This document shows positions 39,776 through 58,503 of a stretch of 64,000 nucleotides of DNA, piece after piece. A model generated the notes under the pieces. That model ran no database searches. It was not told the DNA's origin and saw nothing but the letters and a program-made list of their open reading frames with translations. Source of the DNA: Eucommia ulmoides (lineage: Eukaryota; Streptophyta; Magnoliopsida; Garryales; Eucommiaceae); the NCBI GenBank assembly GCA_016647705.1, contig CM028335.1, positions 5,534,579 through 5,598,578 of the forward strand, given 5' to 3'. The position numbers were made by a program, and so were the translations under genes. How positions within the stretch are numbered: the stretch's first letter is position 1; every line of letters starts with the position of its first letter.

Positions 39776-41061
39776 TATTCTTCTGCAAGAGGCTTAGTGA
39801 AGATATCGGCTAGTTGATTATTAATGTCAATGAATTCCAATGTGATATCGCCCTTTTGAATATAGTCACGAATAAAATGATGTCTAATTTCAATGTGCTT
39901 TGTTTGTGAATGTTGAGTAAGATTCTTACTCAACATATGACGCTAGTGTTATCACATAAGATCGGAACACAACTAACATCAATACTGAAATCTCCCAATT
40001 GTTGTTTCATATAAAGAACTTATGCATAACAATTTTCAGCTGCGATATATTCGACTTCGGCAGTAGATAATGCAACAGAATTTTGTTTTTTGCTTGACCA
40101 AGAAACCAATGCGTGTCCTAGAAAATGACAAATACCACTAGTGCTTTTACACTCGACTTTGCAACCGGCAAAATCCGCATCAAAATAACTAAGCATGTCA
40201 AGACATTTATTTTTAGGATACCATAATCATAAATCATATGTACCAAGTAAATATCAAAAAATATATTTAACGGCGGTTAAATGTGATTCTTTAGGACGTG
40301 ATTGAAAACGAGCATGTAAACACATATTATACATGATATCAGATCTACTTGTCGTAAGATAAAGAAGACTACCAATCATACTTCGGTATTCCTTCTCATT
40401 CACTTTCTTACTGTTTTCATCGGTGTCCAACTTGGTTAAAATACTCATTGGTGTATTGTGTACCTTTGAGTTTTTTATGCCGTATTTTTTAATTAAGTCC
40501 TTGGTATATTTTGCTTGATTGATGAATATTTTGTCTTTTGTTTGCTTAATTTGCAGCCTAAGGAAAAAAGTTAATTCTTCTATCATATTCATCTCAAATG
40601 CTTCCTGCATAAGCTTAGCAAACTCTTAGCACAAGATCTCATTAGTAGCACCGAAAATGATATCGTCAACAAATATTTGCACTAATAAGATATTATTTTT
40701 AGATTCTTTAATGAAAAAGGTTATATCGCTTAAACCACATTTGAAACTTTTTTCTAGGAGAAATCTCTCATACCAAGCTCTAGGTGCTTGTTTGAGACCG
40801 TAAAATGCTTTAGATAGTTTAAAAACATGATTTGAAAACTTTTCATCTTTAAAACTGAGAGGTTGTTCAACATATACTTCTTTGGATATAAAACCATTTA
40901 AAAATGCACTTTTAACATCAATTTGAAAAAGTTTGAAATCATTAGCACAAGTAAAAACAAGTGATATACGTATAACTTCTAGTCTAACTACCAGAGCATA
41001 CGTTTCATTATAATCTATTCTTTCTTCTTGATTAAAATCTTGTGCTACCAATCTTGCTTTA
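39776..41061 (-). pseudogene. Copia-1 reverse transcriptase (C-terminal part) and RNase H, degraded
   Basis: On the minus strand the reading runs AQDFNQEERIDYNETYALV, FQIDVKSAFLNGFISKEVYV, KAFYGLKQAPRAWYERF, FVDDIIFGATNE, KYTKDLIKKYGI, YRSMIGSLLYLTTSRSDI and, past 40254, an RNase H with the TEVEYIAA-like and LADIFTKPLAE-like C-terminus. The FVDD box keeps the aspartate pair. A stop (TAA) at about 40624 and frame changes in RNase H inactivate it. Its 5' continuation lies beyond the MITE at 41735-42029. Confidence 0.87.
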
Positions 41062-41070
41062 TTTCTCTAA

Positions 41071-41734
41071 GGGAAAAATACATTTTAAACCCACTAGGTA
41101 TTGACACTTTTCTAAATGGTCCCTCTCAATTTGACCGTTTCATTTTAAACTCTCTAGGTATAAGCAAGTTTTTATTTGGTCATTCCATCAGAAATTCCAT
41201 TCAAACCAACAGAATATAGGGGTAAAACAGTCTTTTTACTTATTTCTAATTTTTTAATGATTTTTTTCTTTTTTTTTTTATCTTCATCTCTCCCTCTTTT
41301 TTTCTCATTCCTCCATCTCCTTTCCTCTCTCCTTCATTTCATAGGGGGTGTTTACCCCCTGTTACACCCCCTGTTGAAGGGGGTGTTAGGGGGTGGCACC
41401 CCCAGTTACGGGGGTGATTTCACCCCCCGTAACAGGGGCTGGCGGGGGAGGGAAGGAGAGAAGAGAGAGAGAAGGAGAAGGGGGAGTAAGAAATCAAAAC
41501 AAAGGAAAATATATATATATATATATATTAAAAATGATTAAAAAATAATTTAAAATTGAAAAATATAAAATGATGAATTTTCCCTCAACATTTGGTTAGT
41601 TTTGACAGAATTTTTAACAGAATGACTGAATAAAAATGTGTTGATACTTAGAAGATTTAAAATAAAACGCTTAAAAGGAGAGAGACCATTTAGAAAAATG
41701 TCAATACCTAGAGGGTTTAAAATGTATTTTTTCC
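41071..41734. mobile_element. MITE, 664 bp, long TIRs and 9-bp TSD (Mutator-like)
   Basis: Ends GGGAAAAATACATTTTAAAC and its complement; the inverted repeat extends about 160 bp with mismatches (e.g. ctaggtattgacacttttct against agaaaaatgtcaataccta). Flanks are tttctctaa and tgtttctaa, derived from one tatttctaa in the Copia-1 reverse transcriptase, so the duplication was about 9 bp, as for Mutator-like elements. It has no coding capacity. The centre has C/G-rich inverted repeats (41340-41450: ttacaccccctgttgaaggggg, cagttacgggggtgatttcac and partners) beside a CT-rich stretch. Confidence 0.8.
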
Positions 41735-42029
41735 TGTTTCTAATAGCAACACCCGACTCATCATTTTTATTTTGAAAAACCCATTTTGTTCCAATTACGG
41801 GATGGTCATTAAGTCTTAATACTAGAGTCCAAACTTTATTTCTCTCAAATTGATTTAACTCTTCTTGCATCGCTAGGATCCAAGATTCATCGTCAATAGT
41901 TTCATTTATATTTTTAGGTTCAATTTAAGATAAAAAAGCAGAAGTGTTAATATAGTTTCTCAAAGAAGATCTAGTACTTACACTACGTTCAATGTCACCA
42001 ATGATTTGATTGGTAGGATGAATGTAAAC
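41735..42029 (-). pseudogene. Copia-1 reverse transcriptase N-terminal fragment
   Basis: The minus strand reads FERNKVWTLV, HPVIGTKWVFQNKNDESG and VAIRN, the start of Copia reverse transcriptase, cut from the rest by the MITE. Upstream, toward 42029, an acidic linker is just readable before the MULE boundary. Confidence 0.85.
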
Positions 42030-42120
42030 ATTTTTCCAAGAGTTGTTTACCTATTAAATATTAAAAAAAAAAAAAATTACTGAATGAGAATAGTTTTTAA
42101 CTTATTTACGTGAATAATGC

Positions 42121-42463
42121 ATTTCGCCCTTGTGAAGGGCGAAATCGAAATTTTATTTATTTTTTTTTTTTTTTGATCCCGCGCTTGTGAACAGCGGGAT
42201 CAAAAAAAATTAATTTAATTTGATCCCGCCCTTGCGAAGGGCGGGATCAATAATTTTTTTTTTTTTTTTATTTGATCCCGCCCTTCACAAGGGCGGGATC
42301 AAATGGATTTTTTTTTTTTTTTTTAAAAATGTGATCCCGCCCTTATGAAGGGCGGGATCACCAAACGGCGACCAGCCGTTTACACGGCTGGTCGCCGTTT
42401 GCTTTGGCCGGTCAAACGACCGGCCAAAGCTGCATAGAAGGCAGCATAAAAAGGCTGCCTTCT
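42121..42463. repeat. Ordered array of eight hairpins, left TIR
   Basis: Eight self-complementary units stand in a row. H1 42121-42145 (ATTTCGCCCTT stem, GTG loop); H2 42175-42201 (GATCCCGC stem, two conserved mismatches); H3 42222-42248, H4 42274-42300 and H5 42333-42359 (GATCCCGCCCTT stems with loops GCG, CAC and ATG counted inside the 27-bp units); H6 42363-42400 (AAACGGCGACCAGCCGT, loop TTAC); H7 42401-42430 (GCTTTGGCCGGTC, loop AAAC); H8 42436-42463 (AGAAGGCAGC, 8-base loop). Poly-T/A tracts separate H1-H5. They may be transposase binding sites, hairpin RNA sources or structural elements; none of this is shown by the sequence alone. Confidence 0.95.
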
Positions 42464-42570
42464 CCCCTTTTTTTTTTTCGCAGGCTATTTTTTGTTTTTT
42501 TATAGGTATAGGTATAGGTTTAGCTTTAATTTGAAATTTTAAAATCTCGATATATGTGCACAATTTCGCC

Positions 42571-42705
42571 TATAAATATCACTTACCGGATTTCATTAAA
42601 ATTCACATTTCTTCATTTACTCCTTCTCTCATTTGTTCTTCATTTTGATATTTTTTTGTTCTAGTTACACTTCTTCTATTCAGACTTCTACTCCTCTATT
42701 CACAG
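42571..42705 (+). promoter_or_regulatory. Left TIR promoter and non-coding first exon of the transposase gene
   Basis: TATAAATA at 42571-42578 is followed by a pyrimidine-rich, ATG-free leader ending ctctattcacag|gttagt, a 5' splice site at 42705/42706. The matching acceptor is aatgatag at 45268, nine bases before the transposase ATG. The right TIR has the mirror copy with TATA at 55485-55492. This gives a TIR-driven gene whose first intron is the tandem array. Confidence 0.65.
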
Positions 42706-42829
42706 GTTAGTATATTTTTAACGTTTTTTTAATTTATTTGTTAATTTAATTAGTATATTTTTTATCTTTATTTGTTAGTTAGTTGGATTTGTTAATTTAA
42801 TTGTTGAATTAAAAATTATACTTTGGTCA

Positions 42830-44999
42830 TTTTTACATGTTTAAGAAAATATAAAATAATATATTATTTCAAAAAAAATGTTAGTTAGTTAGTTTAATTT
42901 TTTACTCTAGCTATTTAATTAAAAAAATATACACTTTGACCCCTAAAAGTATAACAACTAGAAAAATATAAATTTTTAATATATTATTTTAAAATAAATT
43001 ATTAGTTAGTTTGTTTGTTTTGTTAATTTAATTTGTTTAATTAGTTGGTTAGTTTAATTTGTTAATTTAGTTGTTAAATTAAAAATTACACTTTGTCTCC
43101 TTTCACATGTGTAGAAAAATATACACTTTGGCCCCTAAAATTTTTTCAATTACAAAAATATAAAATTTTCAACCTAACGTTTTAAAATAAATTGTTAGTT
43201 AGTTTCATTTTTGAATTTTGTTATTTAATTTAAAATGTATTTATTTAATTTGTTAATTTAGTTGTTAAATTAAAAATTACACTTTCGCCCCATGTGTACG
43301 AAAATATAAATCAACATATTACATTTTTAGTTAGTTTAATTTTTTAATTTAGCTATTTAATTAAAAATACACTTTGGCCACTGAAATTTTGATAATTAGA
43401 AAAATATAAAATTAAAATACCTATTATTTTGTTTAATTTGTTAATTTAGTTGTTAAATTAAAAATTACACTTTCGCCCCATGTGTACGAAAATATAAATC
43501 AACATATTACATTTTTAGTTAGTTTAATTTTCTAATTTAGCTATTTAATTAAAAATACACTTTGGCCACTGAAATTTTGATAATTAGAAAAATATAAAAT
43601 TAAAATACCTATTATTTTGTTTAATTTGTTAATTTAGTTGTTAAATTAAAAATTACACTTTCGCCCCGTTCACATGTGTAGGAAAATATAAATCAACATA
43701 TTACATTTTTAGTTAGTTTAATTTTGTAATTTAGCTATTTAATTAAAAATATACACTTTGGCCCCTTAAATTTTGATAATTAGAAAAATATAAAATTAAA
43801 ATACCTATTATTTGTTTAATTTAGTTGTTAAATTAAAAATTACACTTTGTCTCCTTTCACATGTGTAGAAAAATATACACTTTGGCCCCTGAAATTTTTT
43901 CAATTACAAAAATATAAAATTTTCAACCTAACGTTTTAAAATAAATTGTTAGTTAGTTTCATTTTTGAATTTTGTTATTTAATTTAAAATGTATTTATTT
44001 AATTTGTTAATTTAGTTGTTAAATTAAAAATTACACTTTCGCCCCATGTGTACGAAAATATAAATCAACATATTACATTTTTAGTTAGTTTAATTTTCTA
44101 ATTTAGCTATTTAATTAAAAATACACTTTGGCCCCTGAAATTTTGATAATTAGAAAAATATAAAATTAAAATACCTATTATTTTGTTTAATTTGTTAATT
44201 TAGTTGTTAAATTAAAAATTACACTTTCGCCCCGTTCACATGTATAGGAAAATATAAATCAACATATTACATTTTTAGTTAGTTTAATTTTCTAATTTAG
44301 CTATTTAATTAAAAATATACACTTTGGCCCCTTAAATTTTGATAATTAGAAAAATATAAAATTAAAATACCTATTATTTGTTTAATTTAGTTGTTAAATT
44401 AAAAATTACACTTTCGCCCCTTTCACATGTGTACGAAAATATACACTTTGGCCCTTGAAATTTTTTCAATTACAAAAATATTAAATATCAACCTATTGTT
44501 TTAAAATAAATTGTTAGTTAGTTTCATTTTTTAATTTCGTTATTTAATTTAAAATGTATTTATTTAATTTGTTAATTTAGTTGTTAAATTAAAAATTACA
44601 CTTTCGCCCCTTTCACATGTGTACGAAAATATACACTTTGGCTCTTGAAATTTTTTCAATTAGAAAAATATTAAATATTCAACCTATTGTTTTAAAATAA
44701 ATTGTTAGTTAGTTTCATTTTTTAATTTCGTTATTTAATTTAAAATGTATTTATTTAATTTGTTAATTTAGTTGTTAAATTAAAAATTACACTTTCGCCC
44801 CTTTCACATGTGTACGAAAATATACACTTTGGCTCTTGAAATTTTTTCAATTAGAAAAATATTAAATATTCAACCTATTGTTTTAAAATAAATTGTTAGT
44901 TAGTTTCATTTTTTAATTTCGTTATTTAATTTAAAATGTATTTATTTAATTTGTTAATTTAGTTATTAAATTAAAAATTACACTTTCGCCTCTTTCACA
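42830..44999. repeat. Left TIR tandem array, about 189-bp period
   Basis: The string gttgttaaattaaaaattac recurs at about 43261, 43449, 43638, 43824 and 44015 (spacings 186-191 bp) and on to 44970. Each unit holds an acactttcgccccttt-cacatgtgta block and an acactttggcccctgaaatt block. Two unit types alternate: one with acctattattttgtttaa, one with ttgttagttagtttcat. About eleven copies are present. Confidence 0.9.
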
Positions 45000-45277
45000 T
45001 TGGAATATGATGTACAAATTGTGCACTTTCATTCCTCAAATTAATTGAATCTATTTAGTTGATATTAGCTTGACGTGGAATTTATATTCGATTTAGAGTT
45101 AAAGTTAAAATAATTATTGAATAAATTCAAAATAAGTAAAATATTAAGGATTGAAAATAAATTACTCTAACCCATAAAAAATGAACACTATAAACCAACA
45201 TACTTTTGTGATTGAGTTTTAGTTAACGATATTTTTTTCTTGTTTTGTTTTGCCTTGTCAAATGATAGCCGCTTGAA

Positions 45278-48078
45278 ATGGATCACGTTCGATTGTTATT
45301 GTATTGGGGTGGTAGAATATTGGAAGGTACGGAGTTCGGGGTTTGTTATAGTACATCAGTTGTAAAATCTTTGGTTGTCCGTAGGGAAACAAGCTTAAAT
45401 GAATTAATTGAGACGCTAAAATCATGTGTTCTTGAAGATGGGGTTACTGGAATTTTGAAACTAAAGTGTAGGATGCCGATGGCTCTTTTCGGGTCGAACT
45501 ATAAATATACCTTGTTTTCTATCGAGGATGACTCAGCATTAAACCAAGTGCTTGAGTTACCTCTTTATATACCCTCCCTTCTTGCTGTTGAAGTATATGT
45601 AGAGATAGAACGGGCATTTGATGATGGTCCAAATTTTTTTCCCCCAAGTGGTCATTTTACCAACTTAATGACCCAGAGTTTAAATCCGTACAGTACCCAA
45701 TCTGACGGACAATTTTTCGGCATCGTTCCCCAAGCAGTCCAATCTAATTACACCATCCCACCCCCTTACAGTCTAGAACAATATCATTCCCACAATACTC
45801 CTATGCTGCACCCCCAATTACTTGAGTCTAATTACACCGTCCCACTCCCCTATATTCCAGAGCAAGATCATTCTCATAGTATGATTGACCGTGGTCATGG
45901 CACCAGCTCTGCTCTTCCACATCCCCATTATTCACCGAGTAGTCCGCCGCAAGATAACATAAGTAATTATGGTGGTGACTTTGATACAATTGATAGTCGC
46001 GACGATGTGTCAGAAGAAGAGTTCGATGCGGATTTAGCGTTTCAGCCAGACGAAGATGTAGATACTGGGCCTAGCGGGCAAGGGGGTGAAAATCAGCAAT
46101 TGGAGTTAGACAATGTAATTTCATTTTTCAATAACTTGGAATGGGGTGACGACGATGACTTGGCGAAATATGAGCCGAAGTTGCGGAAGAATTTTTGGAC
46201 ACCGGAGATGGACGAATTCCGTACTGGTATGGTCTTTAAGGACAAGGAACATCTCCAGCAGGCCGTCAAATTTTACCACTTGAAAAAGAACAAAGAGTTT
46301 TATGTCTCGCAAACGAACAAGAAGCTCTGGTCGATTAATTGTTCGCATGGATGCGATTGGAGGTTGCGGGCGGGGAGGAAAAAAAGTCACGGTATGTTTG
46401 AGATTACACAGTATGAGGGGCAACACACATGTTTCTATAATCATACTGCTGTAGATCATAAAAATTTGGATTCTGCACTCATTTCGAACCTAATACTTGG
46501 ACAAGTAGAACAGGATCCAGAATTGAAGATTGGCGTCATTGTGGCTTACGTGAAGGAGGCTCATGGATACACTATCTCCTATAGAAAAGCTTGGTTGGCT
46601 AGATCTAAAGCCATTGAGACCTTGTTCGGAGATTGGGATGAATCATACCGGAAGTTACCGAAATTTATGGTCGCGTTGCAGCACTACAATGCAGGTACGA
46701 TTGTCGAGTGGCGCACTGTGTCGACTGATATGCCTGACTATAGGATGTTCGACATGGTATTTTGGGCATTCAAAGCTTCAGTCGACGGATGGCGTTATTG
46801 TCGCCCTGTAATCACCATTGACGGGACCCATTTGTATGGTAAATATGATGGAAATATTTTAATCGCCATAGGAATGACGTCGTCCAACAAGTGCTACCCA
46901 ATGGCTTTTGCAGTCGTACCGACGGAGGATTACCGATGTTGGCGCTGGTTCATCTACATGCTTAAGCGTCATATTATCGGTGATCGTCCTGAGGTTACAT
47001 TGATATCTGATAGACACGCCGGCATTATTAGTGCAGTTGACAATATTTGGCTTAATCAACATAACGAGTCCCTCCGATATCATCGATTTTGTTTGCGGCA
47101 CCTTTGTAGCAATTTCAATAAGATTGCTAAAAATCAGCATCTCAAAGATCTTGCTTGGAATGCAGGTGCTGCAACACAAATTCGAAAATACGATGCTATC
47201 ATGGAAGAGATCAAAAAGATTGATGTTCAGGCGCATGCATGGTTGAGCAATCATGCACCTTACAAATGGACCAGAGCACACGACAATGGTAAGCGTTGGG
47301 GAGTCATGACGACCAATTATGCAGAGGTATTTAACAATTGTTTAAAGGGTGCAAGAAATGTTCCAATAACTGCAGCCGTCAAGATTACGTTCTACAGGAT
47401 GGTTAAATACTTTGATATTGGTCGACAACAAGCTTTAAAGGACTCAGCTGACGGTTACGTATATGCTAAACACGTCGTTGATAAAATACAGAAATCTCAA
47501 GCCAAGTCTAAAACATACGAGATTCAAATATTCAATCGGTAATTTAGTATTCATTATTATTTTTTCACGTTACATATAATTGTTACGACATAATTTAACA
47601 ACTAAATATTTTTTTTTCTAGAGAGAATATGATCTTCCATGTGAAAACTAGGAAGACCCTTACTGGGGGCTTGATTCCTCATGAAGTCACACTAGGAGAT
47701 AACCCTGATTGCACATGTGGGAAGTTTAAAATTTGGCGATATCCGTGCTCCCATATGCTTGCGGCCACGGAGTATAGTGGAGTTAATGCATTCCGCTATA
47801 TTGCTGCTGAGTATACAATGACAAACCAATTGATGGCATGGGAGTCTTCGTTTAGGCCGATTCTTCATGAGGACTACTGGCCAGAGACCAATTTTCCGAA
47901 CCTCATTCCAGACCATGATAGACTTCGAGTTGTGCATCGTGGTCGACCCAATTCCACTCGCATTCAAAACGAGATGGATCAGTCGCGCAGAACAATGACA
48001 AATCGTTGCGGTTTATGTTCCCAAACTGGACATGATAGGCGAAAATGTCCATCCCGACCCCGCCATACACCCAATTGA
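45278..48078 (+). CDS. MULE transposase (mudrA-like), 905 aa, two exons, open
   Basis: The enzyme binds the TIRs and excises/inserts the element. Exons 45278-47538 and 47622-48078 join across a GT-AG intron (codon CG|A) into 906 codons with the stop. Domains: N-terminal PB1-like region (1-112); acidic/proline-rich linker (113-300); MuDR-type DNA-binding domain with zinc ligands in CSHGC and HTC (about 305-480); MULE DDE domain with D515 (ITIDGTHLYG), D578 (LISDRHAG), the CLRH motif (605-608) and E683 (NYAEVFNN); SWIM finger C784, C786, C796, H798; C-terminal zinc knuckle CGLCSQTGHDRRKC. All catalytic and zinc residues are present and the length is normal for autonomous MULEs. A splice acceptor just before the ATG fits the TIR leader exon. 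Confidence 0.94.
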
Positions 48079-48233
48079 TCTTATCGGTTTATTGTAATGA
48101 ATGTTTATGCTATTTTTTTTTGTTATGTCAACTGTTATGTATTATAAATTCTATGCACTTGTTGCGCATATTGCCTTTATAATGAATCTTATATTTTGTT
48201 TATAAATATGATTAAATTTTAATTTCGTACTAA
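48033..48233 (+). repeat. Inverted duplication, left copy (transposase 3' end plus downstream)
   Basis: This segment, from the zinc-knuckle codons through the 3' flank to tttcgtactaa, is repeated in reverse at 52355-52557. It carries TATAAATA at 48201-48208, placed 43 bp before the ATG of the next ORF. Confidence 0.92.
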
Positions 48234-48250
48234 AATTAAAAGGATTGAAA

Positions 48251-48685
48251 ATGTACACGGTGAGAGATTTGTATCGTTCAATGGGACGTAACTGGCTTTT
48301 GGAAGACGAATTCTCATACTCTTTAGATCCAAGAGTTCGTTACTCTTCACGGTCGGTTGCAAGGATGCGGGAGGAATACACTTATCGTGTCAACCAATCA
48401 GAGGTTATGGTGGACGGATGCAGGCAATATAATATTCCAATAGTGCATCAATTGGCCAGAACAATGCCAACAGACACGCCGCATAATCTTCAAATGGCGT
48501 TGCATCGCTACCGTGAAGAAAATAACCGAATGCAAATTCGAATTTTTCGACATGAGCTTAAAACGACGGCACGTGAGCGTCTTGAACAAGGTTTGTTCGC
48601 CGAATCGCGTACTTACATGAGACATGCAAAGAGTCCTCAATATCAGTCAGATATTGAAATGTCTGATGATGAGAGTAATGTTTAA
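48251..48685 (+). CDS. MULE accessory ORF C, 144 aa, unknown function, paralogue of ORF D
   Basis: I do not recognise this protein. It starts at ATG 48251 (MYTVRDLYRSMG), 173 bp after the transposase stop and on the same strand, with TATAAATA 43 bp upstream. It is hydrophilic and Arg-rich, with no signal peptide or membrane segment. A central motif REEYTYRVNQSE is followed by a helical, heptad-like region HRYREENNRMQIRIFRHEL and an acidic tail (SDIEMSDDESNV). ORF D has the same arrangement (RQEWEYRVNESN, RLENNRMLLRRN, acidic end), so the two are diverged duplicates. Lack of stops in both suggests they are kept. They might be DNA- or protein-binding helpers of the transposase; that is a guess. 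Confidence 0.68.
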   Translation: MYTVRDLYRSMGRNWLLEDEFSYSLDPRVRYSSRSVARMREEYTYRVNQSEVMVDGCRQYNIPIVHQLARTMPTDTPHNLQMALHRYREENNRMQIRIFRHELKTTARERLEQGLFAESRTYMRHAKSPQYQSDIEMSDDESNV

Positions 48686-48972
48686 TGAAGTAACGTTGGT
48701 GAATTGTAGTTTAATTATGTATTTCCTTTGAAATCTAATGTATCATTTCTACGTTAAATTATAATAACGTTACTTCTCCCAAACAACTGACTTTTTCTCT
48801 TTCAATTGATAGGTGATGTTGGGTTAGTTTTTTTTTTAATTTAAGGCTCGTATACATAAGTTATAAAACATAATTTTTCATTAATTATCTTTTTAAAAAA
48901 CTAATTTTTTTGTGAACTCTTAATTTGCAGTATAATATTTGTAAAGAAACTGTTCAGCCTATAATTTTCGTA

Positions 48973-49479
48973 ATGTCTTCACATATTAATTCAAGTGAAG
49001 AAAGTTCATATGGTTTTTCAAGTGAGGAGAACTCATATGGTGTTTGGGGTTGGCATGGACCGTGGGATCACCAAAGATGTTGGGTTTTAAAACCATATTA
49101 TGATGATTACTGGAGTGATCAAGAGACCAACCCGATAGAGTATCGCGTCGGTCTACGCCAAGAATGGGAATACAGGGTGAATGAGTCTAACAACCTTGTA
49201 TTTTGTTTGAGAAATCTTAATGCACCAGTTCCGCATCGTCGAAGTCTTCAGATGCCTCGACGATGTATAATTGATGACACAACCGAGATTGAAGATGCTA
49301 TTACACGAATTCGCCTGGAGAATAATCGAATGTTGTTGCGCAGAAATAGATATTATCTACTACAACTAGCCAATGAAATGGCTGCCGCAAGCAACAGAGC
49401 ACTCTCTCCAAACGAATACCATAACGTGATAAATAACAATGAATATTTGTCTGAGGGGTACATGTCGAATGAAGAATAA
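48973..49479 (+). CDS. MULE accessory ORF D, 168 aa, unknown function, paralogue of ORF C
   Basis: The first ATG is at 48973 (MSSHINSSEESSYGF). A splice-acceptor-like tttgcag ends at 48930, so a 5' UTR exon upstream is possible. The protein has a Ser/Glu-rich start, an aromatic stretch YGVWGWHGPWDHQRCW, then RQEWEYRVNESNNL, a helical RIRLENNRMLLRRNRYYLLQL segment and an acidic end. The order of motifs matches ORF C. No known domain is recognised. It lies 287 bp downstream of ORF C and ends 439 bp before the convergent PMD stop. Confidence 0.68.
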   Translation: MSSHINSSEESSYGFSSEENSYGVWGWHGPWDHQRCWVLKPYYDDYWSDQETNPIEYRVGLRQEWEYRVNESNNLVFCLRNLNAPVPHRRSLQMPRRCIIDDTTEIEDAITRIRLENNRMLLRRNRYYLLQLANEMAAASNRALSPNEYHNVINNNEYLSEGYMSNEE

Positions 49480-49917
49480 TTAATTTTTTGCTCTGGTATT
49501 TTATTTTGGAGTGTTTTTATTGTCACTATTTTTATGATATTATGTACTGTATTTCTTATATACTGTCTTTGTTATGAGTTTTGTAACAAATATCGTTAAA
49601 TTTGTTTCCGTCTATGTAATATTTTTTTAATATAATATTTATGATTATTTTAACTTTAATCGCCTTTAATATTATACCGTTACGAGTTGTTTTGCCTTTT
49701 TAAGAATCTTTCCGGAATGTTAGACACATTGCTCGATCTCTCATTCAAATTCTGTATCTATTTGCGAAGCAATATATACGGTACATCAACAACTTTCTAA
49801 ATCTCCAGACGTTACAAAAAAATGTATTTACTAACTACATAAATTACTATATAACTATATATTTACAAAAAAAATGTATTTACATTTCTATAACTAAACT
49901 ATCAACTACATAACTAA
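49480..49917. other. Convergent intergenic region of the MULE
   Basis: AT-rich sequence between the ends of ORF D (plus) and the PMD gene (minus). It should hold the poly(A) regions of both transcription units; no gene is seen. Confidence 0.6.
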
Positions 49918-52316
49918 TTATGTACCGCAAGGCCTCCGACGGACGTTCCTCCGCCCTCGTCGTTGTGCAACAGGAGGTTCCTCAGCCTCCTCATGAACTT
50001 GTGTAACTTGTCCGAAGTTCGTGAACGCCTGATGCATACTCCCCGGGATAGCATCGACGTCGTCCTCGAACCACGGCACCGGCGACACTTGTCTTTGCAA
50101 TCTTGTGGGTTCGGCAAATGCCACCGGAGGAATGACGCCTGAAGTTGAAATAAATTCATCCATCTCCGGAGTGACGAATGACGATGACGGGTGTGTACCT
50201 AGCTGCGATGCGTAATGCGAATAAGGGTCATGCATCTGGTACACGTTGGATGGCCCAGCATCGTCACCCATGCCGTACGAACTAGATGATACGGCATGAG
50301 CGCCCATGCCGTACGTACTAGATGATCCGGCATAAGCGCCCATGCCGTACGATGTAGAAGGTTCGGCATCGCCCACACTACCTGGACGATAGGCATCAGA
50401 AGTCCATGGCTGAGGAGAAGGCTGAGGAGCAGCCTGAGGAGATGAAGGAACGTCAGCTGCCACATGGCGTGGTACTCCTCGATACATCCTCCCAATGGTG
50501 CCATCATTGATGGCATGAGCCAGCTCGATACCCGATTCTGCAGTACCGGACCGTAGGGTTAGATCACTCAAGCGTATCAAGTTTGATACCTCCGTATCCT
50601 ACGAAACACATAAATTGGTTTAATTAATACATGAATAATAACAACATAATCTAACTCATATAACTAAACAGATGGTACAGTCAATGTGATCATACATCTA
50701 ATCCCAGTCGTCCTCCTATTGGTAGATACCCAAATTGAGGTTGATACGCCGGGTTGACCAAAAATCTTCGTGTGATTCGCCAATACCAATCTATGTATTC
50801 TTGGTCAACCCCTATCCCTTGCTCAAAATTGGCGACATCTGGTGCTTGCCGATTATTCCACGCAACTATATGTGCATGGTGATGGTCAGCCCAGTTTGCA
50901 CGGAAGTATCCTCGCCGAGTAATTTTGTGCAAGTTCCTGTCCCACATTACCGGTTCAGGAACCCCTTGGCGATAACCAAACTGTCGTAGCACGCGGAGGG
51001 GATACGTGTACTCGACAATCTCATAGCATATTAGGGGCAACTTTGCCATCCAAATATCTTCTCCATCTTTAGTATATGGAGGCAAAGTCGGCAAGGTATA
51101 GGGCATCCAAATGACCTGTAAAATAAAATATAAACAAACAAATAAAAAAATTAAAATTTCGATATAAGTAAATAAATAACCTCGTCATTCTTCAAACGAT
51201 CTAACTGATCGCGATACACCACCAAAATATGCATCGGCAAATTATCCAAATTAAATTGAAGAGTCCACCTGTACACCAAAAATATAAATCATAAGTTTAA
51301 TATCCATAAATAAATATCTATTACATGATAAATGAAATTAAAAATAAAATACTAATTACTTACCAATAACCCCTCGGAGCAGCTGGGAACTTCAAGTCGC
51401 CGCCGTAGTCGAGCTCTCCGAATGATATATTATAGTCGGGGAGAGGGACTACTTCAGGCCGAAGCCTTGGAAATCGCTCCCAAGCCCAACACTCCAACAA
51501 AAATAGGCACCCGGCAATGTGTTTCGTGTTGGGCTTCGTCGCCTTACAGAGCTCGCGGTAGAGGATCGCTAGGGTCGCACTGCCCCAGCTATACTTGACG
51601 AAAGGTGCCAAGTCACGCAGCAGTAGGAGGTAGGCTAACTTAACTCTGTTGTGTGATTTATCAGAAAACAACATCTCACCAAGCATAAGCAAGCAATATG
51701 CACGTGCGTAGCAATGCATAACCTCCTCGTCGGCCTCGTCAGGAACTATAGCAAAGGTATCCCGTAACCACTTCAGCGTCAAAGACCCATTCCTAATCTT
51801 ATCCACTGGTGGTTGCACTCCGAGTAGCTCACCGCAGAGTCTCTGCCAGACGGTATCCTCATGCGAGTCATCATTCTGGATAACTGGCAACCCATGCACG
51901 GGTAACCCCAATAAGACGGTCACGTCCTGCAATGTGACAGTCATCTCCCCGACGGGTAGATGGAAAGTGTGCGTCTCCGGACGCCATCTCTCTACCAACG
52001 CGGTTATGAGGGCCCTATCTAACCGCTTCGGCCACAACCTAAATGGGCCGTACAAACCAACTGATTCTATTAACTGTATAACTCTAGGGGGGACATTTTC
52101 TCTCCATTCCCCTACATCGTGTCCAACACAGTCAAAAGTATTGATATCCTGAAACATTTAATAAGACATAATAAATAACATTAAAAAATTAAAAAACTTA
52201 AATAAAAAAAAAACAAATGCAATAACCTAAATGTTTACCTGCGCTAACCAAACTAGTTCGGACCTGTGCTGTCCCTGTTGGTGTAGAACTGAAGTATCTT
52301 CAGGCCCAGGATGCAT
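49918..52316 (-). CDS. Plant mobile domain (PMD) protein encoded by the MULE, 683 aa, five exons, open
   Basis: Exons on the minus strand are 52239-52316, 51364-52148, 51181-51268, 50696-51115 and 49918-50598; all junctions are GT-AG and the sum (2,052 bp) is one frame to TAA. It begins MHPGPEDTSVLHQQ and HRSELVW, then ERWRPETHTFHLPVGEMTV (79-97) and LLGLPVHGLPV, the PMD hallmark of the MAIN/MAIL and 'phosphatase 7 long form homolog' proteins. The domain goes on through RVLRQFGYRQGVPEP and WYWRITRRF. The last exon adds three YGMGAxAxSSS-like repeats and a basic RRGRRNVRRRP end. PMD proteins act in nuclear gene silencing and meristem upkeep in Arabidopsis, and many are borne by transposons. 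Here it lies opposite the transposase, as mudrB does in MuDR. A splice acceptor (TTTCAG) two bases before the ATG fits a TIR leader exon. Confidence 0.92.
50270..50370 (-). repeat. Triplicated 42-51 bp coding repeat in the PMD last exon
   Basis: Three copies of a unit like gcccatgccgtacgaactagatgat encode YGMGAYAGSSS, YGMGAHAVSSS and YGMGDDAGPS in frame. Such repeats can expand and contract by replication slippage. Confidence 0.85.
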
Positions 52317-52354
52317 AGCTGAAATTTTTTCCCACAACACTCGTGGTAAATTTG

Positions 52355-52557
52355 TTAGTACGAAATTAAAATTTAATCATATTTATAAACAAAATATAAG
52401 ATTCATTATAAAGAAATGTGCGCGACAAGTGCATAAAATTTATAATACATAAAAGTTGACATAACAAAAAAATAAAGTAGCATAAACATTCATTACAATA
52501 AACCGACAAGATCAATTGGGTGCAAGGCAGGGTCGGGATGGACATTTTCGCCTATCA
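52355..52557 (-). repeat. Inverted duplication, right copy, upstream of the PMD gene
   Basis: Reverse complement of 48033-48233 with few differences. On the minus strand it joins the TIR array directly to the codons after the zinc-knuckle histidine of the transposase, then runs 3' to tttcgtactaa, 39 bp before the PMD ATG. TATAAATA lies at 52380-52387, 64 bp upstream of that ATG. Confidence 0.92.
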
Positions 52558-55330
52558 AAATTTAATAACTAAATTAACAAATTAAACAAATAATAGGTAT
52601 TTAAATTTTATATTTTTCTAATTGTCAAATTTTCAGGGGCCAAAGTGTATATTTTTAATTAAATAGCTAAATTAGAAAATTAAACTAACTAAAAATGTAA
52701 TATGTTGATTTATATTTTCCTACACATGTGAAAGGGGCGAAAGTGTAATTTTTAATTTAACAACTAAATTAAACAAATAATAGGTATTTTAATTTTATAT
52801 TTTTCTAATTATCAAAATTTAAGGGGCCAAAGTGTATATTTTTAATTAAATAGCTAAATTAAAAAATAAAACTAACTAAAAGTGTAATTTTTAATTTAAC
52901 AACTAAATTAACAAATTAAATAAATACATTTTAAATTAAATAACAAAATTCAAAAATGAAACTAACTAACAATTTATTTTAAAATAATAGGTTGAAATTT
53001 TATATTTTTGTAATTGAAAAAATTTCAGGGGCCAAAGTGTATATTTTTCTACACATGTGAAAAGGGCGAAAGTGTAATTTTTAATTTAACAACTAAATTA
53101 ACAAATTAAATAAATACATTTTAAATTAAATAACGAAATTAAAAAATGAAACTAACTAATAATTTATTTTAAAACAATAGGTTGATATTTAATATTTTTC
53201 TAATTGAAAAAATTTCAAGGGCCAAAGTGTATATTTTCGTATACATGTGAAAGGGGCGAAAGTGTAATTTTTAATTTAACAACTAAATTAACAAATTAAA
53301 TAAATACATTTTAAATTAAATAACGAAATTAAAAAATGAAACTAACTAATAATTTATTTTAAAACAATAGGTTGATATTTAATATTTTTCTAATTGAAAA
53401 AATTTCAAGGGCCAAAGTGTATATTTTCGTACACATGTGAAAGGGGCGAAAGTGTAATTTTTAATTTAACAACTAAATTAACAAATTAAATAAATACATT
53501 TTAAATTAAATAACAAAATTAAAAAATGAAACTAACTAACAATTTATTTTAAAACAATAGGTTGAATATTTAATATTTTTCTAATTGAAAAAATTTCAAG
53601 GGCCAAAGTATATATTTTCGTACACATGTGAAAGGGGCGAAAGTGTAATTTTTAATTTAACAACTAAATTAAACAAATAATAGGTATTTTAATTTTATAT
53701 TTTTCTAATTATCAAAATTTAAGGGGCCAAAGTGTATATTTTTAATTAAATAGCTAAATTAAAAAATTAAACTAACTAAAAATGTAATATGTTGATTTAT
53801 ATTTTCGTACACATGTGAACGGGGTGAAAGTGTAATTTTTAATTTAACAACTAAATTAACAAATTAAATAAATACATTTTAAATTAAATAACGAAATTAA
53901 AAAATGAAATTAACTAATAATTTATTTTAAAACAATAGGTTGAATATTTAATATTTTTCTAATTGAAAAAATTTCAAGGGCCAAAGTGTATATTTTTCTA
54001 CACATGTGAACGGGACGAAAGTATAATTTTTAATTTAACAACTAAATTAAACAAATAATAGGTATTTTAATTTTATATTTTTTTAATTATCAAAATTTAA
54101 GGGGCCAAAGTGTATATTTTTAATTAAATAGCTAAATTAAAAAATTAAACTAACTAAAAATGTAATATGTTGATTTATATTTTCGTACACATGTGAAAGG
54201 GGCGAAAGTGTAATTTTTAATTTAACAACTAAATTAACAAATTAAATAAATACATTTTAAATTAAATAACAAAATTAAAAAATGAAACTAACTAACAATT
54301 TATTTTAAAACAATAGGTTGAATATTTAATATTTTTCTAATTGAAAAAATTTTAAGGGCCAAAGTATATATTTTCGTACACATGTGAAAGGGGCGAAAGT
54401 GTAATTTTTAATTTAACAACTAAATTAAACAAATAATAGGTATTTTAATTTTATATTTTTTTAATTATCAAAATTTAAGGGGCCAAAGTGTATATTTTTA
54501 ATTAAATAGCTAAATTAAAAAATTAAACTAACTAAAAATGTAATATGTTGATTTATATTTTCGTACACATGTGAAAGGGGCGAAAGTGTAATTTTTAATT
54601 TAACAACTAAATTAACAAATTAAACAAAATAATAGGTATTTTAATTTTATATTTTTCTAATTATCAAAATTTCAGGGGCCAAAGTGTATTTTTAATAAAA
54701 TAGCTAAATTAGAAAATTAAACTGACTAAAAATGTAATATGTTGATTTATATTTTCGTACACATGGGGCGAAAGTGTAATTTTTAATTTAACAACTAAAT
54801 TAATAAATTAAATAAATACATTTTAAATTAAATAACAAAATTCAAAAATGAAACTAACTAACAATTTATTTTAAAACGTTAGGTTGAAAATTTTATATTT
54901 TTGTAATTGAAAAAATTTCAGGGGTCAAAGTGTATATTTTTCTACATATGTGAAAGGAGACAAAGTGTAATTTTTAATTTAACAACTAAATTAACAAATT
55001 AAACTAACCAACTAATTAAACAACTAAACCAACAAATTAAATTAACAAAACAAACAAACTAACTAATAATTTATTTTAAAATAATATATTAAAAATTTAT
55101 ATTTTTCTAGTTGTTAAACTTTTAGGGGTCAAAGTGCATATTTTTTTTAATTAAATAGCTAGAGTAAAAAATTAAACTAACTAACTAACATTTTTTTTAA
55201 AATAATATATTATTTTATATTTTCTTAAACATGTGAAAATGGTCAAAGTATAATTTTTACTTCAACAATTAAATTAACCAACTAACTAATAAATAAAGGT
55301 AAAAAATATACTAATTAAATTAACAAATAA
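52558..55330. repeat. Right TIR tandem array, about 189-bp period
   Basis: Inverted relatives of the left array units (ggggccaaagtgtatattttt and cacatgtgaaaggggcgaaag blocks) repeat about fourteen times. The order of the two unit types differs from the left side, so the arrays have been rearranged since the TIRs were last identical. Confidence 0.88.
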
Positions 55331-55358
55331 ATTAAAAAAACGTTAAAAATATACTAAC

Positions 55359-55492
55359 TTGTGAATAGAGGAGTAGAAGTCTGAATAGAAGTAGTATAAC
55401 TAGAACAAAAAATATCAAAATGAAGAACAAATGAGAGAAGGAGGAAATGAAGAAATGTGAATTTTAATGAAATCCGGCAAGTGATATTTATA
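55359..55492 (-). promoter_or_regulatory. Right TIR promoter and non-coding first exon of the PMD gene
   Basis: TATAAATA at 55485-55492 (minus strand), a leader nearly identical to the left one, and a donor cacaa|gttagt at 55359/55358. The last exon base is A here and G in the left TIR, so this donor may be weaker. Acceptor candidate: TTTCAG just before the PMD ATG (52319). The resulting intron would be about 3.0 kb. Confidence 0.6.
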
Positions 55493-55580
55493 GGCGAAGT
55501 TGTGCACATATACCGAGATTTCAAAAATTCAAAAATTCAAATTCAAATTCAAAAGGGAGAGGGGAAAGGGAGGGGGGAAA

Positions 55581-55922
55581 GAAGGCAGCCTAAAGGCTGC
55601 CTTCTTTGCAGCTTTGGCCGGTCAAACGACCGGCCAAAGCAAACGGCGACCAGCCGTGGTAACGGCTGGTCGCCGTTTGTTGATCCCGCCCTTCACAAGG
55701 GCGGGATCATATTTTTAATAAAAAAAAAAATTTCATTTGATCCCGCCCTTGTGAAGGGCGGGATCAAATAAAAAAAAAAAAAAAAATTTATTGATCCCGC
55801 CCTTCGTAAGGGCGGGATCAAATTAAATTAATTTTTTTTGATCCCGCTGTTCACAAGCGCGGGATCAAAAAAAAAAAAAAAAAAAAAAAAAAAATTCGAT
55901 TTCGCCCTTCACAAGGGCGAAA
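55581..55922. repeat. Ordered array of eight hairpins, right TIR
   Basis: Mirror set: H8' 55581-55604, H7' 55611-55640, H6' 55641-55678, H5' 55682-55708, H4' 55739-55765, H3' near 55793-55819, H2' 55839-55865, H1' 55898-55922. Stems H1-H7 are identical to those on the left, including the two mismatches of H2. Differences fall in the loops of H3, H5, H6 and H8 and in the poly-A/T spacers. Confidence 0.95.
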
Positions 55923-56013
55923 TGCATTACTACGGTAAATAAGTTAAAAACTATTTTCATTCAATAATTTTTTTTTTTTTAATATTTAATAGGTAAACAA
56001 CTCATTTTTCCAA

Positions 56014-57463
56014 GCCTTTGGTAACTTGTTCTAGGATGGTTGTACTTCCATTGAATCTTCATCAATAGGCCTCAATCCAACATTTTCAACTTGCTTTGTT
56101 GATTTTTTCTTCAAATCTAGATTTTCTTAATCTAAATCCTTACTTGATGAAAAATGGGTTAGATTCCTCAAAAACAACATGCACCGATTCTTCAACTACA
56201 AGTGTATATTTGTTATATACTCTATAAGCTTTGCTAGTAGTTGAATAACCAAGAAAAATACCTTCATCGAATTTAACATCGAACTTTTAAAATTTTTATT
56301 TATCATTAAGAATAAAACATTTGCAATTGAAAACCTTAAAATAAGAGATAATAGGGGTTTTACCATTCCATAACTCGTTTGGAGTTTTATTTAAACCTCG
56401 ACGGATTGAAACACGGTTCAATACGCAATAAGTCGTACTTATGGCTTCTGCCCAAAAGTATTGCGGTGAGGAATACTCGTTTAGCGTAGTTAGAGCCATT
56501 TGTTGCAAATAGTGATTTTTCCTCTCTATAACGCCATTTTGTTGAGGTATTCTAAGGGCTGAAAAATTATGTTCGTAACTTTGTTCATCACAGAATTTTT
56601 CAATTTCATCATTTCAGAACTCTCTTCTCTTATTGCTTCGGATATTCTTAATACCAGTACCTTTCTCGTTTTCAACATGTTTACTAAACTTAACAAACAC
56701 GTAAGCGATGTCACTTTTCTTAGCAAGAAATAGAACCCATGTATATCTAAAATAATCATCAACAATAACAAATGCATAATACTTTCCACCTAAACTAGCA
56801 ACGGGATTAGGACCGAATAAGTCTAGATGCAAAAGTTCTAACGGTTTAATAGCAGAAATACATTTTTTCTTCTTAAATGAACTTTTGACTTATTTACCAA
56901 ATTAGCATGCATCACATATCTTATCCGTAACAAATTTAGCATTTGGTAAACCATATAAGATTATTCTTAGATAAGTTTGAAATAAATTCTATGCTAGCAT
57001 ATCCTAACCGTCTATGCCATAACCAACTATTTTCGATAAATGTATTACGGCATGAAACATTTTGAGAAGATAGGTAATCAAAAGAACATGTGTAAATATT
57101 TTCAAAACGTGATGCAACAAATAAAACTTTGTGATCATCATTTTCTTTGATGACACATTGATTTTCGAAAAATATTACTTTAAAACCGTTGTCACATAAT
57201 TAACTTATGCTTAAAAGATTATATTTAAACCTTCAACAAGTAAAACATTTTCAATGATAAATGCATCTTTACCAACACTACCAATTTCGATTATTTTACC
57301 ATTAGAGTTGTCTTCGAACGTCACATGTTTGTCATCTTTAGGTGTCAAAGATGTGAATTTATTTTTATCGTTCGTCATGTGCCGTAAGCAACCGCTATTT
57401 AGGAGCCATTTATTCTTTCTTATATTTGCTTTAAAACTAACTTGCAAGGAGCACCTCAAATGA
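56014..57463 (-). pseudogene. Copia-1 integrase and protease, degraded
   Basis: The minus strand from 57459 reads WLLNSGCLRHMTNDKNKF (protease; D of DSG replaced by N), NVLLVEGLNIIF, then after a degraded GAG-pre-integrase region LDLFGPNPVASLGGKYY, VIVDDYFRYTWVLFLAKKSD (integrase D residues), a frameshift, RIPQQNGVIE-like sequence with the glutamate, and QMALTTLNEYSSPQYFWAEA to NELWNGKTPIISYFKVFNCKC. Several shifts and stops are present. The MULE separates it from the reverse transcriptase. Confidence 0.83.
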
Positions 57464-57962
57464 TTCCTAAACGGTATCCATTTTACTTGTGTTCGGGAGG
57501 GTCAGATTTCGGAACCAAGGTTCCTTTTGGTACCCAAAATTTTCTTACCTTGACATTAGCATTTTTTTAGCTTTCTTTCATTGCAAACATCAATAGAGTG
57601 ACCTACTTTGTTACAATAAATATATATTTTTTAAACCTTTTGGTCTTTGAGAAAAAAATCTGAATTTTTTTTTATTTCTTATATTGATGAAAACCCAAAT
57701 TGGCTTTGCCGAAAACACCATTTTGACTTTCCAAAAGAAGTTTGAAGTTATTTTCACATTTAATAAACTTGTGGACTATTTTGGTTAAATCATCAATTTG
57801 ATTTTTTAAAGAAGTATTTTATTTTTCAAGATTTTGTTTCTTTAAAGAATCATTTTATCTTTTTAAAGAAATATTTTTAGATTTTAATTTTTTCAAATCA
57901 TTTGAAAGAGTAGTTATTATTTTGTTAAAAGTTATTATTTTTATAAAAATAATTTTTAAGTT
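57464..57962 (-). pseudogene. Copia-1 gag-protease linker, heavily degraded
   Basis: AT-rich sequence with no long frame. On the minus strand it holds Lys/Asn-rich coiled-coil-like remnants expected between the zinc knuckle and protease. It ends at the insertion at 57963. Confidence 0.45.
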
Positions 57963-58503
57963 TGTCGGTGCGTAAAACTGGCACACACTTCAAGTATGGT
58001 CCGGTCGGATGACAAAGGAGGGGACCTCTTGTTGAGGTGGAGTCGGCGGTTGAAAAGTCCTTACATGAGCTGTCTTGGGTCAACCTGAAGGGCTGACTTG
58101 CTGAAGTCCGCAGTCCCTACTGTGCCCGTAGTCCTGCTCTCGAGTGACCTATATCTTCACACGTAACCTGGCCAGGGGTTTCCCAGAAAGCCCATCCAGC
58201 GTGAGAGTAAGATCTCATGGGGAGAAGAATACAATATGTTGGTATTTAGAGAAATAAGCATTAAGGATTTTACTCAAGTATTGAACAGTAAGACTCGCAT
58301 CAATTTATAGCGTTGATTTCTTCCCATATTTATAAAAATAGAGATTGCATAGTGAAATCGCATAGTAATGGGCTTGGACTTTTGGGCCTATTTAGAGAAG
58401 CTCGCGGGCCTTTATCAGGCCTATGGAGAAAATGTAGGTGATAGTGGACACGGGGCTGAGGCCCAAGTGTTGACTCGGTGAAGCCCAAAAAATACCCTCA
58501 TCA
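57963..58503. mobile_element. 541-bp solo LTR or TRIM-like insertion
   Basis: Starts tgtcggtgcg, ends ctcatca, with perfect TSD aagtt at 57958-57962 and 58504-58508. GC content is clearly higher than the Copia-1 sequence around it. No coding sequence, no 5S rRNA-like part (so not Cassandra) and no inverted ends. Orientation and family are unknown. Confidence 0.72.

Follow-up and report, generated by a model that had tools for sequence, protein, structure and literature searches.

A four-gene Mutator-like element of Eucommia ulmoides carries a plant mobile domain gene with a predicted VANC21-like fold

A 64,000-nucleotide stretch of the Eucommia ulmoides genome (assembly GCA_016647705.1, contig CM028335.1, positions 5,534,579–5,598,578 of the forward strand; hereafter the window, which lies on contig C11 of the 946.7 Mb that we searched) contains a Mutator-like element (MULE) at window positions 42040–56003. 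The element is a young, multicopy and probably autonomous MULE with four genes: a transposase, two small open reading frames (ORF2 and ORF3), and a plant mobile domain (PMD) gene. The most important result is that the main exon of the PMD gene (exon 2) is predicted to fold like VANC21, a DNA-binding anti-silencing protein. Sequence comparisons further indicate that the transposase and PMD genes have been passed on jointly and are both maintained by selection, and that their present arrangement derives from a single internal inversion. We lean slightly toward reading the element as a four-gene MULE, derived by inversion, whose PMD protein would be a VANC-type DNA-binding anti-silencing factor acting on motifs in the element's arms.

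Gene content and shared history of the genes

The element has the hallmarks of a MULE: a transposase with a MULE DDE domain and a SWIM finger, long terminal inverted repeats (arms) ending in GAGTTGTTTACC/GGTAAACAACTC, and a 10-bp target site duplication (TSD), within the 8–11 bp expected (Table 1). Each arm is ∼3 kb long, with a ∼650 bp GC-rich outer part of hairpin-like units followed by 2.4–2.8 kb of AT-rich repeats, and the two arms are 89% identical across 1879 columns. We examined stretches at both expected ends of four other copies; both ends were found in two, each with its own perfect 10-bp TSD (TGATGAAGTA and TAATCCTAAC), and neither in the other two. These TSDs indicate that the family moved recently. 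The transposase matches MULE (PF10551, 6.8e-16), DBD_Tnp_Mut (PF03108, 1.1e-7) and SWIM (PF04434, 3.8e-7), all above cut-off. The PMD protein belongs to the plant mobile domain family (PF10536, 1.1e-60), scoring 206 bits in exon 2 and 57 bits in exon 4 against a curated cut-off of 34.9. The original prediction, made from the window alone, described a two-gene element on the plan of maize MuDR. Its ends, arms and both gene models stand, including the full reading frames of a transposase driven inward from the left and a PMD gene driven inward from the right. The two-gene description does not, since the overlooked ORF2 and ORF3 sit between these genes; an element of only a transposase and one opposing gene, as in the MuDR plan, is thus not what the window holds.

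Table 1. Features of the element in window coordinates
Feature	Position	Strand	Details
Target site duplication, left	42030..42039		ATTTTTCCAA, identical 10 bp at 56004-56013
Left inverted arm	42040..45090	+	Outer part 42040-42700 rich in GC and hairpins; AT-rich repeats with CACTTTSGCCCC, CACATGTG further in
MULE transposase, 905 aa	exons 45278-47538, 47622-48078	+	Open frame, ATG to stop; Pfam MULE, DBD_Tnp_Mut, SWIM
Left breakpoint repeat (transposase 3′ end and spacer)	48033..48233	+	94% inverted repeat with 52355-52557
Internal segment, inverted relative to L041+L043	48231..52557		48231-49699 = 7404-5955 (minus); 49759-52557 = 5733-2954 (minus)
ORF2, 144 aa	48251..48685	+	No assigned family; ORF3 paralogue; dN/dS 0.25 (CI 0.13-0.51) against PMD-less element L045
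ORF3, 168 aa	48973..49479	+	No assigned family; mostly helical model; dN/dS 0.14-0.17 against six copies L045-L050
PMD gene, 683 aa	exons 52316-52239, 52148-51364, 51268-51181, 51115-50696, 50598-49918	-	Open frame, GT-AG introns, no stop; PF10536
Right breakpoint repeat (transposase 3′ stub and spacer)	52355..52557	-	Now upstream of PMD; a 557-bp stretch reaching into PMD exon 2 is collinear with L041 (92%)
Right inverted arm	52558..56003	-	Same repeated words; pairs with left arm
Target site duplication, right	56004..56013		ATTTTTCCAA, perfect 10-bp direct repeat just outside element

Twenty further copies were chosen for a long transposase frame (all 18 listed with 757 aa, plus one each with 740 and 718 aa), which biases transposase intactness upwards; PMD played no part in the choice. 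Genome-wide counts here and below are lower bounds drawn from the best-scored candidates (150 of 2936 for MULE, 146 of 1762 for PMD and 150 of 1487 for ORF3). All 20 copies, 96–100% identical to the window in DNA per exon, carry a PMD gene opposite the transposase, with all five exons in 18 (exons are missing in L009 and L018). ORF2 and ORF3 are both present in 17; L009 retains part of ORF2 and lacks ORF3, and L010 and L020 have neither. With the window included, the PMD frame is unbroken in 11 of 21 copies and all four genes in seven, the splice sites of the copies being unchecked. Three distant transposases (L037–L039, 24–26%) had no PMD or ORF2/ORF3 match within the 5.5 kb fetched, and eight other loci (L001–L008) had none within 3.3 kb each.

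The PMD gene does not evolve neutrally. Between the window and an older copy, L040, the ratio of nonsynonymous to synonymous divergence (dN/dS) is 0.326 (confidence interval (CI) 0.25–0.42) for PMD and 0.172 (CI 0.14–0.22) for the transposase; the L040 PMD carries one stop. Both ratios are conservative, since neutral decay after insertion raises dN/dS. Synonymous divergence (dS) is 0.427 for PMD and 0.420 for the transposase, which fits joint inheritance of both genes from the split onwards. Moreover, pairwise distances of the two genes agree closely among 19 copies (Mantel r 0.915, p 0.0001; two of the 21 copies were dropped for gaps). Variants within the 21 copies, for which the commoner base was taken as older with no outgroup, point the same way. 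Single-copy variants have nonsynonymous:synonymous ratios of 2.0 for PMD and 2.15 for the transposase, near or slightly under a neutral expectation of 2.4–2.6 (transition weight 4), and shared variants have ratios of 0.64 and 0.83, respectively. Single and shared variants differ for PMD (Fisher p 0.0085 with stops, 0.0185 without) and for the transposase (0.0165 and 0.0170). The proposal that PMD is a standing partner gene and not a one-off capture, which would have failed had other copies lacked PMD or had it evolved neutrally (dN/dS is 0.33), is thereby upheld.

ORF2 and ORF3 likewise are conserved, real genes under purifying selection. They are paralogues (33% identity over 108 aa, with E 6e-13 in a comparison limited to this pair), and neither has a Pfam match. 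A profile search with ORF3 found relatives in 20 proteins, whose named organisms are Rhododendron, Vaccinium and Camellia, all Ericales. The structural model of ORF3 (pLDDT 65, with a low-confidence N-terminus) had no match in the PDB at E ≤ 0.001. Against the PMD-less element L045, dN/dS of ORF3 is 0.14 (CI 0.07–0.26), and against five more copies it stays within the range given in Table 1. Comparison with the closest tandem copy, L041+L043, gives 1.26 (CI 0.17–2.16) for ORF3, with too few changes to inform. Among the 21 near-identical copies there is no selection signal for ORF2 (shared variants: one nonsynonymous, one stop, one synonymous; single: 24 nonsynonymous plus three stops to seven synonymous) or ORF3 (shared 1:0; single 20 plus two stops to nine), because shared variants are too few. 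MULEs often carry gene fragments, and PMD is broken or truncated in 10 of the 21 copies, as it might be if PMD, ORF2 and ORF3 were passengers of a successful transposase. We regard that account as scarcely credible: dN/dS of all three genes lies well below 1, and recent capture is hard to square with the matching dS of PMD and transposase, which extends over a long span (0.42).

Predicted PMD fold and repeated words in the arms

The fold prediction offers a structural basis for the anti-silencing role that the original prediction had named as one possibility for PMD. The plant mobile domain has been described as a domain of unknown function (PMC8616336). A VANC21-like fold makes that function testable, as binding of short DNA motifs, in a domain present both in host silencing factors and in transposons. 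The domain was first described with a rice MULE, fusions of it with MULE transposases occur in grasses and Amborella, and a role against silencing has already been put forward (PMC5418596, PMC8616336). In tea, 175 loci producing small interfering RNAs lie at PMD genes (PMC10673657), which fits host attack on PMD-bearing elements. In the literature text available to us we found no link by homology between PMD and VANC or DUF1985, and texts that name both VANC and the plant mobile domain treat them apart. Likewise, a literature search that took in few subscription papers found neither the VANC fold of PMD, nor the inversion, nor the ORF2/ORF3 family in print.

VANDAL/Hiun, with its VANA, VANB and VANC genes, is a close parallel: a multi-gene MULE with short motifs repeated in its non-coding parts (PMC5735166), whose VANC21 has the fold predicted for PMD here. 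It differs from the Eucommia element, known here from sequence, in that the PMD of the latter is PF10536 by sequence with DUF1985 below cut-off, the motif is another one, and the inverted arms are long. In the window PMD, DUF1985 scores 17.3 bits against a cut-off of 35.1, so the protein is not a DUF1985 member by sequence; 16 of 49 PMD proteins have DUF1985 matches at E ≤ 0.1. Weak DUF7745 matches were also seen in PMD proteins, such as P0098 and P0107 (four of the 49), a hint that DUF7745 may belong to the same superfamily as PMD.

The arms contain candidate targets. In the left arm (42700–45090) there are 13 CACTTTSGCCCC and six CACATGTG sites, with 0.00 expected by base shuffling, and in the right arm (52558–55360) there are 15 and nine, respectively; CACATGTG is palindromic and is thus counted twice (12 and 18) over both strands. 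The genes contain no CACTTTSGCCCC and one CACATGTG; a 50-kb flank contains neither, and a looser form occurs there three times. Elsewhere, the exact 12-letter word occurs three times in the L041/L043 right arm, twice in the left arm of L054 and once in that of L055. The more distant 75% subfamily has variants of it (CACTTTGNCCC), four before the L042 transposase and one in L040 (240 bp). The arm of PMD-less L045 contains none of these words, nor do the related arms of L051–L053, elements with no scored PMD match, and the L052 and L053 arms show the same end, GAGTTGTTTAC. The common end and the absence of the words from these four arms suggest that ends are shared and that the repeats go with PMD. 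This association, in few elements, is a lead and not proof that the arms are PMD targets.

We conjecture that PMD binds the short motifs repeated in the arms, in the manner of VANC, and that the bound protein relieves host silencing of all copies, so that promoters within the arms could transcribe the genes. Through the inversion PMD, until then second after the transposase, would have gained an arm promoter of its own, with a duplicated piece preserving both the end of the transposase and the leader of PMD. ORF2 and ORF3 would be helper genes that the element and a PMD-less sister MULE have in common through exchange. More tentatively, and on balance doubtfully, PMD and VANC might form one transposon-encoded family of sequence-specific DNA-binding proteins, with which the PMD-bearing MULEs of many flowering plants would undo the silencing of their kin through arm motifs and of which MAIN and MAIL1 would be members turned to host use.

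Several observations weigh against this conjecture. Identity in the VANC21 fold match is only 8–10%, and a PMD profile searched against PDB sequences misses VANC21, with no match at E ≤ 0.001 and two chance-like ones at E 0.047 and 0.53. Every DUF1985 match shown lies below the Pfam cut-off. The motifs were picked after viewing the arms, and because long repeats enrich any unit word the counts are not independent. The 75% subfamily lacks the exact 12-letter motif, and the sequence after PMD, 1.9 kb in L040 and 1.05 kb in L042, contains no motif. Some copies with an unbroken transposase have a broken PMD (e.g., L011 and L017), and L041, the sole copy read through with the older gene order described below, has broken transposase and PMD frames; PMD would therefore act in trans or be dispensable to some copies. 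Chance may account for the spread of the inverted order, carried along by a lineage that happened to succeed. Among four elements called PMD-less, L045 alone was read far enough to show the absence of PMD, and the others lack a PMD match in the scored list. Lastly, MAIN and MAIL1, PMD proteins of the host, function in silencing, which is the opposite direction, and a shared fold does not show function.

Two other functions for PMD deserve consideration, and we judge both unlikely. It could be a MURB-like helper for integration or transposition with no anti-silencing role: PMD shares the element with the transposase, reads in from the other arm in the young order and keeps pace with the transposase in divergence, and mudrB of MuDR is apparently required for integration (PMC6446971). 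The predicted match to a DNA-binding anti-silencing protein argues otherwise, as do PMD-less L045, which has ORF2 and ORF3, and the 55 of 150 scored ORF3 matches with no scored PMD match within 9 kb; near relatives may thus move without PMD. Alternatively, PMD could be a decoy that competes with MAIN/MAIL1 or binds their partner PP7L, blocking the pathway everywhere without binding element DNA. A transposon-encoded PMD has been proposed as a counter-silencing strategy (PMC8616336, PMC5418596). Against a decoy, the VANC-type fold has been solved with DNA, which together with the repeated words that go with PMD suggests a sequence-specific action. A VANC-type factor remains our preferred reading, and the family offers the material to test it: a protein, motifs as candidates for binding, sister elements with and without PMD, and both gene orders within the same genome.

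A quick tree of 117 PMD rows leaves the window protein on a long branch and without a firm placement; it comprises the query and 116 of 120 listed matches (the best of 483, four with short alignments omitted), with no named Arabidopsis MAIN or MAIL1. The tree also contains a short-branch group of 21 rows (P0004–P0022, P0025 and P0115), many ∼1000 aa long, with named members from, e.g., Olea, Salvia, Sesamum and Striga, all Lamiales. This group has the look of a single conserved gene and not of one carried by transposons.

Gene order, inversion and a PMD-less sister family

Pairing the 146 scored PMD matches with the 150 scored MULE matches and the window's own transposase gave 46 pairs. The window order, with PMD convergent on the transposase, was found in all 40 pairs with PMD identity to the window of at least 93% (93–100%), and the remaining six (91, 91, 88, 86, 75 and 75%) are in tandem on one strand, which places the rearrangement between 91 and 93% PMD identity. 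Tandem copies L040 and L041 read transposase, spacer and PMD consecutively in one direction. L041 together with the right part L043 reads transposase and PMD on one strand, followed by ORF3 and ORF2 on the other. ORF3 likewise faces PMD in two further tandem copies, located on C5 and C12, as judged by match positions.

Relative to L041+L043, the whole block of PMD, ORF3 and ORF2 is reversed in the window, and its ends are marked by an inverted repeat of ∼203 bp, 94% identical, that the original prediction did not mention. The corresponding piece of L041+L043 (2954–3155, the transposase end and spacer) is single and continuous with PMD; in the window it flanks the block on both sides. Inversions with staggered breaks leave duplications at their ends. 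The alignments thus indicate one internal inversion of ∼4.4 kb, with a 201-bp duplication at the breakpoints, giving transposase, ORF2 and ORF3 in one direction and PMD in the other. Because the piece was duplicated all genes stayed whole, the transposase retaining its end and PMD its leader. This shows a MULE exchanging and reordering its genes unbroken, by way of an inversion that duplicates a piece both neighbours need. Three observations suggest that the tandem order is the older: the more distant subfamily has it, L041+L043 lacks the second copy of the piece, and in gene model P0023 of Actinidia rufa the SWIM finger of the transposase leads into PMD without a change of direction. The original prediction placed PMD in the mudrB position; it does oppose the transposase in the window, but it is not the original occupant and reached that position recently, by the inversion.

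An inverted dimer was our initial hypothesis and was dropped once L043 showed an older element with ORF3 and ORF2 in place at its right end. Two elements joined head to head, each losing half with no inversion, could account for the very long arms and for the transposase 3′ stub upstream of PMD. Such an origin is very improbable, as ORF3 and ORF2 already form the minus-strand right end in L041+L043 and the entire block is reversed onto the window.

In Heliosperma pusillum, of another plant family, gene model P0117 has MULE transposase, SWIM and PMD in one frame, i.e., the tandem order. L042 (reverse strand, 3239–6415 of C16:1897500–1905000) is an older copy with a transposase cut near codon 355, in which PMD exons 2–5 still read apart from two stops. 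At its right arm, copy L017 has kept PMD exon 1 and lost the breakpoint repeat and leader upstream of PMD, and its PMD has three stops.

MULEs with a PMD gene antisense to the transposase were already known. Table 1 of Dupeyron et al. 2019 (PMC6446971) lists PMD in the groups MUDR, MDR, MUDRAVI2, MULE-Monocots, MuDR-9_OS, VANDAL and MULE-Solanaceae_1, antisense in most MUDR members and in some members of other groups. MULE-Solanaceae_1 combines an ORF of unknown function with an antisense PMD, and half of VANDAL members have PMD and/or a DUF (PMC6446971). These groups share with the Eucommia element a SWIM-bearing MULE transposase and a PMD gene, mostly antisense in MUDR; their arms measure 14–421 bp or are absent, in contrast to ∼3 kb with internal repeats here, and that table contains no inversion, ORF2/ORF3 sequences or PMD selection (PMC6446971). 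The MULE–PMD fusions of grasses and Amborella (Ikeda et al. 2017, PMC5418596) resemble our older copies in joining PMD to the transposase, if the direction of fusion is as we assume; they are fusion proteins, whereas here the genes are separate and, in the young form, reversed. Maize MuDR has, like the young form, two convergent transcription units (mudrA and mudrB) from two arms (PMC3310237, PMC6446971). It differs in that the second unit here is PMD by Pfam and in that the older form has ORF2 and ORF3 in that place.

L045 belongs to a sister family, with a transposase 71% identical in protein to the window's and with ORF2 and ORF3 opposite it; there is no PMD match in the 1.7 kb between the genes or elsewhere in the 8 kb fetched. 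Its dS from the window is 0.70 (0.56–0.85) for the transposase, 0.22 (0.12–0.34) for ORF2 and 0.32 (0.21–0.45) for ORF3. The lower values make the ORF2/ORF3 cassette younger than the transposase split, which points to exchange, in either direction, between the PMD-bearing family and this PMD-less sister. L051–L053 had no ORF2 in the 1 kb fetched, and their arms align to that of L045. In L040, a host pentatricopeptide repeat gene follows soon after PMD, and no ORF2/ORF3 match lies in the 9.9 kb joined. The likely order of events is a split of the PMD and L045 lines (dS 0.70), a split of L040 (dS 0.42, CI 0.35–0.51), gain of ORF2/ORF3, inversion and amplification. Alternatively, the L040 line may have lost ORF2/ORF3, as the ORF3 dS interval overlaps that of the L040 split. 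The other 95 of the 150 scored ORF3 matches have a scored PMD match within 9 kb, and all 95 face PMD, as either gene order predicts.

In the Copia sequence around the MULE, the ORFs of at least 120 aa at 40000–58000 include one 141-aa fragment. Just left of the MULE, at 41070–41735, the Copia remnant seems to contain another inverted-repeat element, ∼660 bp long and G-rich in its middle, with ends matched by eye.

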